A stretch of 64,000 nucleotides of DNA, taken from positions 2,480,001 to 2,544,000 of the forward strand of contig NZ_CP060398.1 of the NCBI RefSeq assembly GCF_015840915.1, read 5' to 3'. The notes beneath the pieces are model-generated. The model was given only the letters and a program-made list of their open reading frames with translations, searched no databases and had not been told where the DNA came from. Numbering within the stretch: the stretch's first letter is position 1; every line of letters begins with the position of its first letter. This document shows positions 30,874 through 62,458 of the stretch, in pieces. The DNA is from Synechococcus sp. CBW1002. Lineage in GTDB: Bacteria; Cyanobacteriota; Cyanobacteriia; PCC-6307; Cyanobiaceae. The position numbers and the translations under genes are program-made.

Positions 30874-31431
30874 GGCTGGTCAGCGACACCAGGTCAGCGA
30901 GGTGCTGGACTTCTGGTTCGTGCAAAGCCGGCTGCGCCAGTGGTTCGCCAAGGACCCGGCCTTTGATGCCCTCCTGCGGGAACGATTCCTGGGCCTGACA
31001 CGGCGGGCGATCGCCGGTGAGCTCGATGCCTGGAATGAAGAGCCGTCCCGAGGCCTGGCGCTGGTGCTGCTGCTGGATCAGTTCCCGCGCCAGTTCTGGC
31101 GCGACACCGCCATGGCCTTCGCGGGCGATCTCCAGGCCCTGGCGCTGAGCCTGATGGCTGTGGAGCGCGGCCGGCTGGAGGCCGAAGACGAGCAGGCAAG
31201 GCGGCAGTTCTGGCTGATGCCGCTGATGCATTCGGAAGACCTGGCAGAGCAGGAGGCGGCACCTGCCGCTGTTCGAGCGGTTCAGCGATCCCCGCACCGC
31301 CGACTTCGCCCGCCAGCACCGGGATGTGATCGCCCGCTTTGGCCGCTTCCCCCACCGCAATGCTGCTCTGGGGCGGGTGTCGAGCGCGGAGGAGCTGGCC
31401 TTCCTGCAGACGCCGGGCTCCCGCTTCTGAA
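30872..31431 (+). pseudogene. DUF924 protein with a frameshift
   Basis: The frame from ATG 30872 reads EVLDFWFVQSRLRQWFAKD, ALVLLLDQFPRQFWRDTA and MPLMHSEDLAEQE, clear DUF924. After AEQEA a shift of one base is needed to recover LPLFERFSDPRTADFARQH, DVIARFGRFPHRN and the proper end FLQTPGSRF at 31431. Repairing the shift gives the usual length of about 185 residues. Confidence 0.75.
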
Positions 31432-47815: not shown

Positions 47816-47970
47816 TTGGCCCGCTCACCCTCCAATCCCCAGCTTGTGCTGCGTCCGCAGGATCTGGTGGTGCTGCTGCGCCTGGCCCTGGATCCAGGCC
47901 CCGCGCCCACCGATGCGGCCCTCGGCGCCGAGCTGGGCCTGACGGCTTCGGAGACCCATGCGGCGGTGGT
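47816..47970 (+). pseudogene. Winged-helix gene, copy 2, truncated
   Basis: From a TTG start it matches the first about 51 residues of 12313-12858 (ARSPSNPQLVLRPQDLVVLL, LGLTASETHAAV), then jumps at VRTSDPAQR into antisense DUF296 sequence. The rest of this gene and the entire nucleotidyltransferase were deleted. Confidence 0.8.
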
Positions 47971-48088
47971 GCGCACCAGCGACCCAGCGCAGAGGTGCCC
48001 GCCGATCACCGCACGCCTGCTGCCTGCCACGGCGATGTGCAGGTGGGCACCATCAGATGAATGGGTGCCGCAGAGGCACCACCTTCAT
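47970..48088 (-). pseudogene. DUF296 gene, copy 2, gutted
   Basis: Only the first codons (MKVVPLRH) and a later piece (DGAHLHIAVAGSRRAVIGGH, LCAGSLVRTTA) remain, in different frames; the middle and the C-terminus are deleted. The right end of the deletion fuses to the winged-helix remnant. Confidence 0.75.
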
Positions 48089-48663
48089 GGCTTCGGCCCC
48101 TCGACCAGCCCCTGGAACATCACCAAGGCATCGACGTAACCCAACTGCTTGTGGCGAAACGCCCCTGGCAGGGTTCCCACCAGCTGAAAGCCGTTGCGCC
48201 GCCAGCAACGGATGCCGGCGCTGTTGGTGCTCACCACCAGGTTGAACTGCATCGCCCGGAACCCCAGCCGCCGAGCCAGCTGCAGGGAGTGCTGGCAGAG
48301 GCGGCTGCCGATTCCCTGGCGGCGGCAGTGCACCGACACCACGTAGCCCGCGTTGGCGACATGGGCGCCGAGGCGCAGGGAGTTGGGCCGGAGGTAGTAC
48401 GTGCCCAGCACGGCCCCGGCCACATCCACCGCCACCATCACCGCCTTGCTCTGCCCGACCCACGCCACCTGGGCCTCTTCTTCTGTGATGCCTGGGTCGT
48501 GGGGGAAGGTTTCACCAGCGCGGAACACCGGCTCCAGCAGGGCCCACACCCCAGGCCAGTCGGCCGCCGCATAGGGGCGGATCTTCAGGGGCGAGGAGAG
48601 CGCAGCCAGGGAAGGGGGATCCAGGGGATGGTGATCCTCGTCCCCCTCCAGCTGGTGAACCAA
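48085..48663 (-). CDS. GNAT-family N-acetyltransferase, copy 2
   Basis: A 192-residue acetyltransferase with LKIRPYAAADWPGVWALLEP, GTYYLRPNSLRLG, the acetyl-CoA loop RRQGIGSRLCQHSLQLA and NSAGIRCWRRNGFQLVGTLP. This is the only intact copy of three. It lies 13 bases after HupE in a riboswitch-led operon. Substrate unknown. Confidence 0.85.
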   Translation of the reverse strand: MVHQLEGDEDHHPLDPPSLAALSSPLKIRPYAAADWPGVWALLEPVFRAGETFPHDPGITEEEAQVAWVGQSKAVMVAVDVAGAVLGTYYLRPNSLRLGAHVANAGYVVSVHCRRQGIGSRLCQHSLQLARRLGFRAMQFNLVVSTNSAGIRCWRRNGFQLVGTLPGAFRHKQLGYVDALVMFQGLVEGPKP

Positions 48664-48676
48664 CCCGCCTTTCCGA

Positions 48677-49282
48677 TCAGCGCATCAGCAAGCCGATCGG
48701 CCCCAGGGCTGCCACCCCGCCGCAGACAGCCAGCAGCACGCACACGCCACGGGTCCAGGCCAAGGGCAGACGCCGCAGCGCCAGGAAGCTGCCGCCGCTC
48801 ACCAGCACTGAGCCACTGAAGGCCCCCAGCCACCAGAGCAGGGCGGAGCCGTCGGCCGGAGCTTCCAGGCCGTGCAGCATGGCGTGTACCGCCACCGCTG
48901 CGGCCACCAGGGCGGCGCAGGCACCCAGCTGGGGGCTCTGCTGCGAGCGGAGACTGCGCAGCACCAGCACGGCCACCGCCGTAATCGCCAGAGCTGCGAG
49001 GAATTCCTGGGCCGGCAGGGTGCCGCCCATCGCTCCAAACACACCACCGCCGATCGCCCCAGCCAGAGCCCAGAGCAGCAGCTGCGCAGAAATGCAGGAG
49101 GCGGCGGCCCCGACGCCGACCAGCAGCAGCAGGTGATCGACACCGCTGATCGGGTGCAGGAAGCCGGCGGCGATGCCGCCGTGGGCGATGCCATGGGCCT
49201 GGGCGGGCTGATCCAGCAGCAATGCCAGTGCTGAGGCCGCGCCAAACAGGGCCAGAGATCGGGCAGAAGCAGAAAGGGTCAT
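48677..49282 (-). CDS. HupE/UreJ-family metal permease under a B12 riboswitch
   Basis: A 201-residue membrane protein with signal-like start, HGIAHGGIAAGFLHPISGVD (the HPxSGxDH signature) and AMLHGLEAPADGS. HupE/UreJ proteins move Ni(II) or Co(II). The cobalamin riboswitch directly upstream argues for cobalt. First gene of the HupE-GNAT-(DUF296) operon. Confidence 0.88.
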   Translation of the reverse strand: MTLSASARSLALFGAASALALLLDQPAQAHGIAHGGIAAGFLHPISGVDHLLLLVGVGAAASCISAQLLLWALAGAIGGGVFGAMGGTLPAQEFLAALAITAVAVLVLRSLRSQQSPQLGACAALVAAAVAVHAMLHGLEAPADGSALLWWLGAFSGSVLVSGGSFLALRRLPLAWTRGVCVLLAVCGGVAALGPIGLLMR

Positions 49283-49299: not shown

Positions 49300-49462
49300 G
49301 CCGGCGAAGAAGGGGCTCAACACGGCGAGCGTTCTGGCTGAGAGGGCCATGGCCCCCATCACAGCTGCGGGACAGCGCCGGACTCGGCTCAGGAGAACCC
49401 TGCGCCCCACCGGACTTTCCTCGTTGCCTCCAGGGAGTGACCCACTGGAACCGTGATCTCCA
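49300..49462 (-). promoter_or_regulatory. Cobalamin riboswitch
   Basis: On the minus strand: GAGGCAACGAGGAAAGTCCG, then GAGTCCGGCGCTGTCCCGCA and GCTGTGA, the conserved core of adenosylcobalamin riboswitches, followed by AGCCAGAACGCTCGCC near the 3' side. It ends shortly before the HupE ATG. High B12 would turn the gene off. Confidence 0.85.
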
Positions 49463-49489
49463 TTGTGGGTCCGGCTGGCTGCAGAGGCA

Positions 49490-50041
49490 TCACTGTGGGT
49501 GGCGGACCAGCCAACCGAACATCAGCAACGAGGCGGCGGTGATCCAGCTGCCGCCCACCCGCAGGCCGATCGCCAGCCAGCGCGGATGCGGCGGTGCCAG
49601 AGCCTGCGCAAGCAGAAGGCTCAACACCGCGATCGCCACGGTCTCCCCCAGCAGGGCCGCCAGCGCTCCTGAATGACCGGCCAGGGCCGATCCCGCGACC
49701 AGGGCGAACAGCCCCGCCAGGCCAGCAGCGAGGGGCAGCAGCTGCGCCTGCCGCAGCCGCAGACCGAGGGCCACCAGCAAACCCAGGGCCGCCAACAGGC
49801 CTGTGCAGACGACGGCCAGCAGCAGGGGCGATGGCAGGCGCAGGCCGATCAGGCCCCCCAGCAGCCAGGCCAGCGGCAGCAGCAAGGGCAGGCGATCGCT
49901 GCAGGGCTGGCGGGCCTGCACGCCCAGCAGCACCAGGGCGATCACCAGCAGCAGCTCGGTGGGCTCCAGAAACAGCCGCGCCATGCCATCACCCCAGGGC
50001 CCGAAGCCGGTGGGGGTGAGATGGGCGAGGAGCGCGATCAC
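49490..50041 (-). CDS. UreJ-like membrane protein
   Basis: A 183-residue protein with about six hydrophobic helices (LLLVIALVLLGVQ, LLLPLAWLLGGLIGLRLPSP, AVLSLLLAQALAPP). It starts at GTG 50041 overlapping the stop of the HupE2 gene (GTGA). It lacks the HPxSGxDH motif and is likely the partner or second half of that permease. Confidence 0.65.
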   Translation of the reverse strand: MIALLAHLTPTGFGPWGDGMARLFLEPTELLLVIALVLLGVQARQPCSDRLPLLLPLAWLLGGLIGLRLPSPLLLAVVCTGLLAALGLLVALGLRLRQAQLLPLAAGLAGLFALVAGSALAGHSGALAALLGETVAIAVLSLLLAQALAPPHPRWLAIGLRVGGSWITAASLLMFGWLVRHPQ

Positions 50042-50637
50042 GTGAGGGCCTGCTCCAGGAACCACAGCCCCACCAGCGCCACCACCCCACCGGCCCCTTG
50101 CACAAAGCGCCGACCACCGGGCCAGCGGCGCGTTTCTCCCAGCAGGATCCCGAGCAGATGCAGCAGCCCCGTGGCGATCACAAAGGCCAGGCTGTAGAGC
50201 AGGGCGTTGCTGCCGGCCGGCAGTTCCGCGCCATGGGCATGGCCGTGAAACACCGCGAAGGCGGAAACGATCAGCGCCGCCAGCCACAGGGGCGGTCGGA
50301 GCTCGAACAGCACCATCAGCCCCATCACCAGACCCGAGACGGCGATGCCGATCTCCACCCCCGGAATCGGATTGCCCAGTAGACCGAGCAGCCCCCCGAG
50401 GGCCATCACCATGGGGAAGGCCACCGGCAGCACCCACAGGGCCGGTGGGCCGAGCACCGCACCCCAGAGGCCCACGGCCACCATCGCCACCACGTGATCG
50501 AGGCCCGAGATGGGGTGAAGCAAGCCGGCCACGAAACCACCACCGGTGTGTGCATCGGCATGGGCCCAGACAGACATCGGCACCAGGGCCAGGGCGACCC
50601 CGGCCAGCCAGGCCCATGGCCAGGTGGTTCGCGCCAT
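50038..50637 (-). CDS. HupE/UreJ-family permease 2
   Basis: About 199 residues with HADAHTGGGFVAGLLHPISG, LDHVVAM and FHGHAHGAELPAGSNAL, the full HupE/UreJ signature. Divergent in sequence from the copies at 48677 and 60567. No riboswitch is visible upstream. Start at 50637 or 50661. Ni or Co transport likely. Confidence 0.85.
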   Translation of the reverse strand: MARTTWPWAWLAGVALALVPMSVWAHADAHTGGGFVAGLLHPISGLDHVVAMVAVGLWGAVLGPPALWVLPVAFPMVMALGGLLGLLGNPIPGVEIGIAVSGLVMGLMVLFELRPPLWLAALIVSAFAVFHGHAHGAELPAGSNALLYSLAFVIATGLLHLLGILLGETRRWPGGRRFVQGAGGVVALVGLWFLEQALT

Positions 50638-50694
50638 CGATCTCAGGCCGTTGCCTTCCATCCTCAATCGGCTGACGGTCACCGAGGACTTCCC

Positions 50695-59584: not shown

Positions 59585-59773
59585 ATGGCGGTGAACATGG
59601 AGAAGCTGGGCCGCTTTCTGCTGCGTGGCCTGCGCATCGGTGCCAGCACGGTGTCGATCGTGGAACTGCTGCGCAACGACTGGACCGGCGGCATCAGCGC
59701 CGGCGTGGCCTGGCTCGTCTTCCTGCAGGTGGAGCGGCGGCTGCCGCCCCTCAGTCCGAACTCCGAAGAATGA
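59585..59773 (+). CDS. Small hypothetical protein behind leader copy 3
   Basis: A 62-residue protein (MAVNMEKLGRFLLRGLRIGA, then DWTGGISAGVAWLVFLQVER) with one likely membrane helix. The VERRLPPLSPNSEE end overlaps the convergent DUF296 gene by 23 bases, as the nucleotidyltransferase does in copy 1. Family unknown. Confidence 0.5.
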   Translation: MAVNMEKLGRFLLRGLRIGASTVSIVELLRNDWTGGISAGVAWLVFLQVERRLPPLSPNSEE

Positions 59774-60155
59774 CCTGCAGCTCAGCGTGGCCGGTGGCCG
59801 GATCCAGTTCCCGCCGAAAGTCCCACTCCGGCAGGAGCCCCAGCACCACCTCCGCGGTGGTGCGCACCAGCGAGCCAACGCAGAGGTGACTGCCGATCAC
59901 CACTCCGCTGCAATCAGCGAGCGTGATGTGCAGGTGGGCGCCATCGCTTGAGAGCGTGCCGGCCAGGCTGAGGATCTCCAGATCGCAGCGGATCGTCGTG
60001 GCTTCGGCCGCTCCCGCGAAGCGCAGCTGCGCCACCGTCAGGCTGCCGATGGCGCTGATCACACAGCCCGCCTTCGTCTCCTGCTCACCCATCCAGGCTT
60101 CCAAGGCAGCGCGCAAGTCGTCTCCGGGCTGCAGCCGCAGCGGCACCACCCTCAC
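59751..60155 (-). CDS. DUF296/PPC-domain protein, copy 3
   Basis: A 134-residue protein with CVISAIGSLTVAQLRFAG, LEILSLAGTLSSDGAHLHI and GSHLCVGSLVRTTAEVVLG. GGHL of copy 1 is GSHL here; the histidines remain. It overlaps the GNAT remnant by ATGA-type contact and ends the HupE-GNAT-DUF296 operon. Confidence 0.85.
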   Translation of the reverse strand: MRVVPLRLQPGDDLRAALEAWMGEQETKAGCVISAIGSLTVAQLRFAGAAEATTIRCDLEILSLAGTLSSDGAHLHITLADCSGVVIGSHLCVGSLVRTTAEVVLGLLPEWDFRRELDPATGHAELQVILRSSD

Positions 60156-60541
60156 GGCCGCGGCTCCTCCACCAGCTGCTGAACCATCATCGGGGCACCC
60201 ACGTACCCGAGTCGCTGGTGGCGGAATGCCCCCGGCAGGGTGCTCACCACCAGGCTGAACCGCATCGCCCGGAGGCCCAGCCGCCGGGCCGCCTGATGCG
60301 AGGGCTGGCAGAGGCGGCTGCCGATGCCCTGCCTGCGGCGGTGCCCGGCCACCACGGAATGTGGCCTCAGGTCGATCGCCGGGTCATGGGGGAAGGTGTC
60401 TCCAGAGCGGAAGACCGGCTCCAGCAGCACCGACATTGCCGGACAGTGGGCCGGCTCGCAGGGCCGGATCTGCAGTGGCGTTGTGGGCGCGACCAGCGGC
60501 GAGGGGGATCGGGGGGATGGTGGTGATTCTCTTCCCCCCAT
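60152..60541 (-). pseudogene. GNAT acetyltransferase, copy 3, internally deleted
   Basis: A 129-residue open frame that keeps the N-terminus (LQIRPCEPAHC, VFRSGDTFPHDPAI), the RRQGIGSRLCQPSHQAARRL acetyl-CoA loop and the C-terminus (LPGAFRHQRLGYVGAPMMVQ). It lacks the central strand (GTYYLRPNSL) and the AGIRCWRRNGF segment. Both deletions keep the frame, but the fold is probably lost. Confidence 0.75.
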
Positions 60542-60566: not shown

Positions 60567-61172
60567 TCAGCGCATCAGCATCCCGATTGGCCCCAGGGCT
60601 GCCACCCCACCGCAGAGCGCGAGCAGCAGGGCCACCCCTCGGGTCCAGGCCAGGGGCAGGCGCCGCAACAGCAGGAGGCTGCCGCCGCTCACCAGCACCG
60701 AACCTGCAAAGGCCCCCAGCCACCAGAGAGCGGCAGACGCGTCGACCGGGGCCTCCAGGCCGTGGAGCATGGCGTGAACAGCCACCGCTGAGGCCACCAG
60801 GGCGGCGCAGGCACCCAACTGGGGGCTCTGCTGCGAGCGGAGGCATCGCAGCACCAGCACTGCCACGGCGCTGATCGCCAGGGCTGCCAGGAACTCCTGG
60901 CCCGGCAACGTGCCGCCCATCGCCCCGAATACGGCGCCGCCCACCGCACCAGCCAGGGCCCAGAGCAACAGCTGGGAGGAGATGCAGGAGGCGGCGGCTC
61001 CCACACCGATCAGCAGCAGCAGGTGATCGGCGCCGCTGATGGGGTGCAGGAAGCCCGCAGCGATGCCGCCGTGGGCGATGCCATGGGCCTGAGCGGGTTG
61101 ATCGAGCAGCAGCGCCAGGGCTGCGGCACCGCCGAACAGGGCCAGGGTTCTGGCCGAGAAGGTCTGGGTCAT
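60567..61172 (-). CDS. HupE/UreJ-family permease, copy 3
   Basis: A 201-residue protein nearly identical to 48677-49282 (HGIAHGGIAAGFLHPISGAD, AMLHGLEAPVDAS). It begins a HupE-GNAT-DUF296 arrangement. Its leader keeps only the 3' part of the riboswitch region, so B12 control is lost. Confidence 0.88.
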   Translation of the reverse strand: MTQTFSARTLALFGGAAALALLLDQPAQAHGIAHGGIAAGFLHPISGADHLLLLIGVGAAASCISSQLLLWALAGAVGGAVFGAMGGTLPGQEFLAALAISAVAVLVLRCLRSQQSPQLGACAALVASAVAVHAMLHGLEAPVDASAALWWLGAFAGSVLVSGGSLLLLRRLPLAWTRGVALLLALCGGVAALGPIGMLMR

Positions 61173-61245
61173 CGAGAGGTCCGGTCCGCGCCGGAGATGC
61201 AGGGGTTGGGCACGGCGAGCGTGGCGGATTGAGCTGGTGCCCCGT
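61173..61245 (-). promoter_or_regulatory. Riboswitch leader without aptamer
   Basis: On the minus strand ACGCTCGCCGTG and GGCGCGGACCGGA are shared with the leader of the other HupE gene, but the aptamer core (GTCCGG and CTGTCCCGCA blocks) is absent upstream. Confidence 0.65.
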
Positions 61246-61333
61246 ATCCAGCCACACCAGCAGGATCGCCCCTGCTGACCAAGGATGCAGCTGCTCCAGA
61301 CTGGGCTCAGGCCTCAATGGGAGAGCGGAACCG

Positions 61334-61600
61334 ATGCCTGAGCCCACTGCCGCCACCCCAGGGCCGGAACCGCTGGAACTGCCCGCCGGGGTGCATCAGC
61401 TGTGCGGTTGTGGTCGCAGCCGTCAGGGCTGGTTCTGCGATGGCGCCCATCTGGGAACAGGCCGGGTGTCCTACGAGCTGCGCCTGAGCGAGGCGGCCAC
61501 GATGCTGCTGTGCCGCTGCGGCCGTTCGCACCGCTATCCCCTCTGCGACGGCCGCCATACCGCCCAGCCCCGCGGGCCCTGGTGGCGGCCATGGCGATGA
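61334..61600 (+). CDS. CDGSH iron-sulfur domain protein
   Basis: An 88-residue protein with two CDGSH-type motifs, CGCGRSRQGWFCDGAH and CRCGRSHRYPLCDGRH. Each C-x-C-x(n)-C-D-G-x-H set binds a 2Fe-2S cluster; tandem forms are typical of bacteria. It overlaps the VOC gene by ATGA. Confidence 0.9.
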   Translation: MPEPTAATPGPEPLELPAGVHQLCGCGRSRQGWFCDGAHLGTGRVSYELRLSEAATMLLCRCGRSHRYPLCDGRHTAQPRGPWWRPWR

Positions 61601-61977
61601 GCGCCTCGATCGTGCTGGCCGCCGATGATCCGGCTGGCCTGGCCCGCTTCTACGGCGCACTGCTGCAGGTGGAGCCGCAGCCGGGGCTGAGTGCCACCCA
61701 CTGGCGGGTGGCCTGGCCGGCCGGAGGTTGGCTGGAGATCTACGCGCCATCGCGCAGCCGTCCCCAGCCGCAGCAGCTGGCACGGCTGGCTCTGTGCCTG
61801 CAACGCCAGTCGGATGGCACAGGCGCCGTTGCCATGCTCAACACCTGGATCACCGCGGTGCTGGGCCTGGGCGCCTCGCTGCAGGAACCGCCACGCCTGG
61901 AACCCTTTGGCGCAGAAGCCTGGCTGCTGGATCCGGAGGGCAACCGGTTGCTGTTGCTGGTGATGCCAGCAGCGTGA
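61597..61977 (+). CDS. VOC/glyoxalase-superfamily protein
   Basis: A 126-residue protein with ADDPAGLARFYGALLQVEPQ, GGWLEIYAPS and AEAWLLDPEGNRLLLL, the VOC fold with a DPEGN end. The usual first metal His is not obvious. Coupled to the CDGSH gene. Substrate unknown. Confidence 0.8.
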   Translation: MSASIVLAADDPAGLARFYGALLQVEPQPGLSATHWRVAWPAGGWLEIYAPSRSRPQPQQLARLALCLQRQSDGTGAVAMLNTWITAVLGLGASLQEPPRLEPFGAEAWLLDPEGNRLLLLVMPAA

Positions 61978-62084
61978 AGTCCCCTTCATGAAGCCCCATT
62001 GCCCTTGGTGAAGAGCGGTTTCGTTCGCGCTCCAGCTCTTGTCCTGAGCCGCCAGCCGTCCGATCGTGACTGCATCGACACCCG

Positions 62085-62458
62085 GGAGGCTCCAGCACAT
62101 GGAAGACACCCCACCTGAGCAACCGTCAGGAGTGCGCTGACGATCCGGCCCCTGCTCCAACACTCTCAACGGATGACTGACGTTCCTGGCGTGTCGCGGC
62201 TGTTTTGCTGAAACAACCCTGGCGCCGTCCATTGCACCGCCTCAGGTGCCCCGGACCCAACGGAACGTCCCGATCGACCCCTGGCCCCAGGTGCCAGCGC
62301 CCGCAGCTCCGACCACAACTGAAAACACCCTGATCTGACAACGATCACGGCGATTGCCAAGCAAAAAACTCGCGCAGCTGCGCCCCACCCCCTCGGGTCG
62401 GCACCACGGCTGAGCAGACAAAAGCCCGGGGCCCAGGCTCCGGGCTTTGTTGTGCGGC
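62085..62458. repeat. Dispersed intergenic repeat, copy 2, in a 600-bp gene-free stretch
   Basis: Partner of 1002-1345. It has an extra 20-30 bases around 62200 and 62345. It ends in the hairpin at 62421-62448. The stretch 62459-62587 holds nothing I recognise. Confidence 0.85.
62421..62453. terminator. Bidirectional Rho-independent terminator
   Basis: Perfect nine-base arms AAAGCCCGG and CCGGGCTTT with T-rich flanks on both sides (GTTGT on plus, TTGTCT on minus). It lies 130 bases after the stop of the amidotransferase gene. Confidence 0.75.

Follow-up and report, generated by a model that had tools for sequence, protein, structure and literature searches.

Probable severance of a HupE gene from its cobalamin riboswitch by recombination in Synechococcus sp. 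CBW1002

Two HupE genes and their leaders

The window discussed here, that is, the whole stretch of 64,000 nt that was analysed, covers positions 2480001-2544000 of the genome of Synechococcus sp. CBW1002 (G000), which is assembled as one contig of 3.85 Mb at 99.74% completeness. Two of its genes, both on the minus strand, encode HupE/UreJ family proteins that are 88% identical to each other: copy 1 at 48677-49282 and copy 2 at 60567-61172. Both exceed the PF04955 cut-off of 23 bits (54.5 bits for copy 1, 49.8 bits for copy 2), and both contain the HPXXGXDH signature that PMC7689651 gives for HupE/UreJ permeases, as HPISGVDH in copy 1 and HPISGADH in copy 2. A more typical HupE gene lies nearby at 50038-50682 and scores 179.9 bits against the same model.

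The leader of copy 1 carries a cobalamin riboswitch aptamer at 49307-49470 on the minus strand, which matches the full length of the RF00174 model (positions 1-189) at 48.1 bits. With a covariance model score above the gathering score of 31.5 bits, this leader is a member of the Rfam family, and it is the sole Rfam match in the whole window at gathering scores. Upstream B12 riboswitches of cyanobacterial hupE genes are known, as is the part that Synechocystis HupE plays in cobalt supply (PMC7689651, PMC4284471), and for these reasons copy 1 is expected to be a B12-repressed cobalt permease. By the same analogy, copy 2 is expected to be the same kind of putative permease minus the B12 control. 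Cobalt or nickel is the putative metal of these proteins, going by the B12 control of relatives; a scan of five proteins for metal specificity by NCBIfam gave no matches. The other B12 riboswitch that Rfam detects in this genome (51.3 bits; L174:2100-2956, about genome position 3203099) precedes another HupE/UreJ protein (PF04955 70.8 bits), and thus both detected B12 switches of the genome stand before HupE-type genes.

Each copy belongs to a small block of genes. In the relatives L016, L026, and L043 the order is typical HupE, an uncharacterised reading frame, HupE, GNAT, and PCC, and block 1 keeps this order. Downstream of copy 1 lie a GNAT acetyltransferase gene (48085-48663, minus strand; PF00583 40.6 bits) and a PCC gene remnant (47963-48077, minus strand; 77% DNA identity to 59854-59968), in which only short pieces of the second PCC gene are recognisable by eye, scattered over different frames. 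Block 2 includes an intact PCC-domain gene (59751-60155, minus strand; PF03479 86.9 bits) and a GNAT-type gene (60152-60541, minus strand) that partially matches its block 1 counterpart, has been shortened by an internal deletion to 129 aa from the 192 of block 1, and has no Pfam match at E<=0.001. The decay of the two blocks is therefore reciprocal, the PCC gene being the remnant in block 1 and the GNAT gene the shortened member in block 2. The divergent neighbour of copy 2 encodes a CDGSH iron-sulfur domain protein of 88 aa (61334-61600, plus strand; PF09360 56.8 bits). A 966-bp copy of this CDGSH-glyoxalase region (window 61352-62317), 94% identical, lies on the opposite strand at genome positions 3234741-3235706 (L172:1742-2707).

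The initial annotation, drawn from the letters of the window, had proposed that the gene downstream of 61173 is an intact HupE whose leader has lost the aptamer, the aptamer core being found only before 49282, and had suggested an Infernal search of both leaders with the cobalamin model. Copy 2 is indeed intact, at 201 aa, with a dN/dS of 0.17 against L015 (strain Cruz-7E5). The corresponding values are 0.23 for L015 and L014 (CZS48M), 0.42 for the MAG-type records L012 and L013, and, for copy 1, 0.26 against L012 and 0.31 against L013. The cobalamin search matched the leader of copy 1 and not that of copy 2: the latter has no covariance model match and falls outside RF00174, its locus (L003) gives no cobalamin match at E<=1, and a permissive Rfam scan of 60900-61800 on both strands gave none at E<=10. 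When 330 nt of each of the two leaders are compared, the stretch before copy 1 is the only one to contain GTCCGG and CTGTCCCGCA. The second of these motifs marks the kissing-loop partner L5 (UCCCG) of the aptamer; it is present before copy 1 and in relatives and missing in the 330 nt before copy 2.

What copy 2 retains is a leader tail of 50 nt (61173-61222, minus strand), which corresponds to the final 26 nt of the aptamer as aligned by Rfam together with the expression-platform region. Aligned to copy 1, with 61222 corresponding to 49332, about 138 of the 164 aptamer bases are gone and 26 are kept. The tail is identical at 47/50 positions to both L015 and L014, at 46/50 to L018 (WH5701), 45/50 to L064, 42/50 to L012, and 39/50 to copy 1, and for each relative and for copy 1 the alignment score exceeds all 300 shuffles. 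The leader end that the initial annotation saw conserved between the copies is thus real, but its span of 73 nt (61173-61245) was 23 nt too long, as 61223-61333 aligns with DNA that lies upstream of CDGSH genes. Aptamers are present in the nearest relatives of copy 2, scoring 44.4 bits (L057, from G035), 43.3 bits (L059, from G141), and 42.8 bits (L058, from G193). Since the nearest relatives share 46-47 of the 50 tail bases and carry the aptamer, the aptamer of copy 2 has been lost, rather than never having been present.

The junction before copy 2

The point at which the riboswitch ends can be approached from both sides. Homology on the HupE side stops at 61222 in eight relatives (L183, L184, L185, L187, L188, L189, L190, and L191), while the match on the CDGSH side begins at 61221, running over 61221-61344 in G329 and 61221-61321 in G149 at 85-87% identity. 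The two sides overlap by 2 bp (GT, 61221-61222), and by these alignments the break point is placed to within about two bases. The 111 nt that follow (61223-61333, plus strand) are the upstream region of the CDGSH gene, which now faces copy 2. No HupE was found near the CDGSH region in the 4.7 and 10 kb fetched from G329 and G149. A counterpoint is that the CDGSH genes of both genomes are themselves damaged: the one in G329 is interrupted by a gap, whereas the match to G149 ends before the CDGSH start codon and is followed by reading frames that look transposase-like. Both genomes have a 203-aa reading frame upstream of the CDGSH region, which we take to resemble a cytochrome b561-type protein.

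A 186-nt query spanning the junction was compared with 400 genomes of the family; 49 of them match some part of it, in a few cases by a short segment of 22-36 nt that crosses the break point, and all of it is found only in the genome under study. That no other genome among the 400 has the same junction would fit an artefact of assembly. Such an error is very improbable, given the single contig of the size and completeness stated above, the intact genes on both flanks, and the related arrangement in G001, one further species of the same genus. There a GNAT fragment adjoins the CDGSH gene with no HupE between them, and the riboswitch-bearing HupE is on a different contig. The simplest reading is that block 2 is older than the split of the two species and that its decay has since taken a separate course in each.

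The initial annotation had also raised the possibility of a divergent aptamer in 61245-61400. None was detected there at E<=10, and the stretch up to the CDGSH start is mostly CDGSH upstream sequence. A B12 aptamer too degenerate for Rfam, lying within 61223-61400, might still be argued for from the gapped alignments of L196 and L194, which extend past the junction to 61237 and 61243, respectively, and from the weak local similarity of 61223-61333 to the aptamers of relatives, for which the number of shuffles as good, per 1000, was 6 for L014, 15 for L064, 23 for L018, 26 for L015, 30 for L012, and 65 for copy 1. However, only 111 nt separate the tail from the start codon of CDGSH, and the stretch is 85-87% identical to CDGSH upstream DNA in two genomes that have no HupE there. 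Because the CDGSH upstream match is longer and better, the overruns and the weak aptamer similarity are read as chance, as are the short straddling matches, and the probability of a hidden aptamer is close to negligible.

The break appears to have taken more than the aptamer. A promoter-like box, CACAATGG (49460-49467, minus strand), stands at the 5' end of the leader of copy 1 and has no counterpart at copy 2. The motif CA[CG]AATG occurs just before the conserved 5' aptamer end in 39 of 41 leaders (those over 85 bits among 75 aptamer-bearing family members), the exceptions being L075 and L032, and we take it as the putative -10 element of the promoter. The 111 nt that separate the copy 2 tail from the CDGSH start codon do not contain it, and the rearrangement probably removed the promoter of copy 2 too. 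A consensus scan found no sigma-70-like site in 61100-61450, and likewise none in the copy 1 leader. With the box lost at the break, copy 2 must rely on a different promoter, or else its expression may be poor.

It is therefore conceivable, although the lesser likelihood, that copy 2 is dying: stripped of promoter and aptamer and little expressed, its frame would be intact only from selection before the break. Besides the missing box, the adjacent GNAT gene is shortened, G001 has only the GNAT fragment beside CDGSH, as if copy 2 had been deleted there, and elsewhere in the genome a hupE-like gene behind a mutated riboswitch has already become a pseudogene. Against this, the frame of copy 2 is complete and its dN/dS to L015 is below that of the compared pairs, a value to which the time before the break may contribute, and the PCC gene of the same block is intact. 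Whichever way copy 2 is expressed, its leader lacks both L5 and the ligand pocket, and for this reason it is most likely B12-insensitive. The "regulatory escape" suggested by the initial annotation is thus likely in the sense of insensitivity to B12; as a matter of expression it is putative.

Ancestry of the copies and aptamer loss in relatives

Both blocks run HupE-GNAT-PCC in the same direction about 11.9 kb apart, an arrangement that would suit a recent duplication within the genome, with the new copy born without an aptamer. The trees tell otherwise. In a tree built from 22 DNA rows, copy 1 joins L012 and L013 with support of 100/100 and is 97% identical in DNA to L012, while copy 2 falls near L014, L015, and L018, with weak support (46/88). 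Constraining the two copies as sisters is rejected by the AU test (p-AU 1.1e-52), and constraining both with L012 and L013 is rejected as well (p 0.0005). Since the sister grouping is rejected, the genome, by these trees, carries two distinct lineages of hupE rather than fresh duplicates. The GNAT remnant beside CDGSH in G001 also suggests that the second block predates the species split. A simple in-genome duplication is contradicted by the tree and the AU test, and the phrase "after duplication" in the initial annotation does not hold in its simple sense. A recent duplication could be rescued only through a strong history of gene conversion in copy 1, and is very improbable.

Copy 2 is not the only family member without an aptamer. 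The match list includes Synechococcus, Cyanobium, and Vulcanococcus as named relatives, and in a protein tree of 94 family HupE rows, mostly from a draw of 201 family genomes, the aptamer is missing in 19. Parsimony places 9 changes on this tree and its starred branches force 4, figures that belong to a quick tree with nine long end branches, which does not include L129 (80 aa) or L139 (139 aa, at a contig end). L122 and L123, whose aptamer lies about 0.6 kb upstream of HupE, count as aptamer-bearing. Twenty-four of the 94 rows (L065-L068, L070-L084, L021, L026, L030, L032, and L043) were labelled by a local nhmmer profile rather than by cmscan of the locus. The profile had been trained on 21 leaders, some of them among the labelled rows; at least 7 of the 24 (L067, L070, L071, L075, L076, L079, and L081) have a correctly placed Rfam match. 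In six relatives (L070, L073, L078, L080, L081, and L083), nhmmer finds two opposite-strand B12 aptamer matches back to back upstream of HupE, as at G006:C16, 30735-30899 minus and 30950-31108 plus; for G006 there are also two Rfam matches.

The aptamer-less leaders differ in what they have kept. L105 (G167) and L107 (G191) have in common a 42-nt deletion of the aptamer core in a leader that is otherwise conserved, and their sister L110 (G154) is intact. Little is left of the L111 leader (G030) beyond a hairpin. A further HupE-like gene of the genome under study (L005, 51-53% identical) and its G001 counterpart (L010) have no Rfam match at E<=1 and, by eye, retain a tail-like stretch; in others nothing recognisable is kept. 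The hupE pseudogene mentioned above (L141, genome positions 1076500-1079500; 1077881-1078147, minus strand) is internally deleted and out of frame with the original start codon, and its riboswitch is mutated, with none reported by Rfam at E<=1. In 19 genomes a copy lacks the aptamer, and five of these (G000, G001, G062, G170, and G086) have, in addition, one that bears it, a count made by reading the match list against the aptamer labels, which may miss more distant HupE genes. The notion that losses generally follow duplication was rejected, as an aptamer-bearing second copy occurs, among those matches, in only these five.

The copy 2 tail contains an orphan hairpin of the P13/L13 type, TCCGG-CGCGGA-CCGGA (61180-61195, minus strand), 8-23 nt before the start codon; as sequence, the leader thus has the P13/L13 motif in its expected place. 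The rule used to search for this motif demands GG and CC beside a six-base loop, so that pairs 1 and 2 are preset and prove nothing. It finds the hairpin in 68 of the 75 aptamer-bearing rows, at nearly the same distance to the start codon, and three of the seven rows missed (L075, L076, and L079) have an eight-base loop. The same rule picks 5 of the 19 aptamer-less rows: copy 2 itself, L010 (weakly paired), L105, L107, and L111. In all 68 rule-picked rows pair 3 is C-G. Of 41 distinct windows, 36 have a paired position 4, against a shuffle mean of 32.5 and with none of 2000 shuffles doing as well, a signal that rests on four T-A rows which are mutual relatives, a relatedness that the shuffles ignore. 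Paired variation is modest at pair 5, where 15 of 2000 shuffles do as well, and absent at pair 6, where 1963 of 2000 do.

In corrinoid riboswitches the L13 loop pairs with L5 (consensus UCCCG) when ligand is bound (PMC10653944), and the L5 UCCCG and L13 CGG found here are consistent with such a kissing loop. Folding of a 67-nt piece of copy 2 favours P13 by 1.0 kcal/mol, and a 98-nt piece folds into an alternative pairing. The attempt to assign an ON or OFF state from folding energies was dropped, as the copy 2 value (P13 minus alternative, -1.0 kcal/mol) is uninformative within the range of -5.3 to 7.2 (median 0.0) across the 68 aptamer-bearing rows.

A broader account can be entertained, though it is doubtful: the hupE B12 riboswitch may have been dismantled repeatedly across the family, leaving a graded series from intact leaders through the 42-nt core deletion, little but the hairpin, and the tail cut with P13 to nothing, with the remaining P13 acting as a constitutive or differently triggered element of translation. 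No report of hupE riboswitch loss in cyanobacteria was recognised in the accessible text of open-licence papers.

Probable severance from the riboswitch and comparison with known systems

On balance, it is probable that copy 2 was severed from its riboswitch by recombination and is most likely insensitive to B12. Its ancestor would have been a HupE gene under riboswitch control, as in Cruz-7E5, WH5701, and CZS48M. Recombination inside the 3' end of the aptamer would then have fused the leader to the upstream region of a CDGSH gene, which cost it about 138 of the 164 bases of the aptamer as well as the promoter-like box but left the coding sequence intact. The 50-nt remnant would be the former expression platform, with the 3' strand of the aptamer and the P13/L13 hairpin, and a leader so reduced should be unable to respond to cobalamin. 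Any transcription of copy 2 would come from a promoter within the 111 nt that it now has in common with CDGSH, and the B12-repressible role, a mechanism proposed by analogy, would stay with copy 1.

The outcome is a natural pair within one genome: like transporters, one with a B12 switch and one with only its stub. Intermediate steps can be seen in relatives, among them the natural deletion of 42 nt of the core in two genomes beside an intact sister. Such a pair could show whether a cobalt or nickel transporter that loses its riboswitch escapes B12 control or is simply silenced, and whether the expression platform left behind retains any activity.

Compared with the RF00174 switches upstream of cyanobacterial hupE, the leader of copy 1 is a full member, and the tail of copy 2 is the last part of such leaders, P13/L13 included. 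Copy 2 differs in having neither the ligand-binding core nor L5 nor most of the aptamer, and is thus not a riboswitch. Mutants of L5 and L13/P13 studied with a reporter in B. subtilis offer a second comparison: breaking the L5-L13 kissing interaction disturbs the corrinoid response (PMC10653944), and copy 2 is naturally without L5. Those mutants, however, were made, and a stabilised P13 gave very low expression whatever the ligand, so that the results of that study do not allow the level of copy 2 to be inferred.

Riboswitch loss as such is known elsewhere. In yeasts, TPP riboswitches have been lost from thiamin genes (PMC5997356), and the likeness lies in a family of metabolite genes that has lost its switch in some lineages and kept the gene. 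The yeast switches act on splicing, and the authors suggest a move to transcriptional control, whereas the switch considered here is a bacterial B12 riboswitch. Unlike the yeast case, the loss before copy 2 comes with a mapped junction, a retained part of the expression platform, and a riboswitch-bearing homologue in the same genome.
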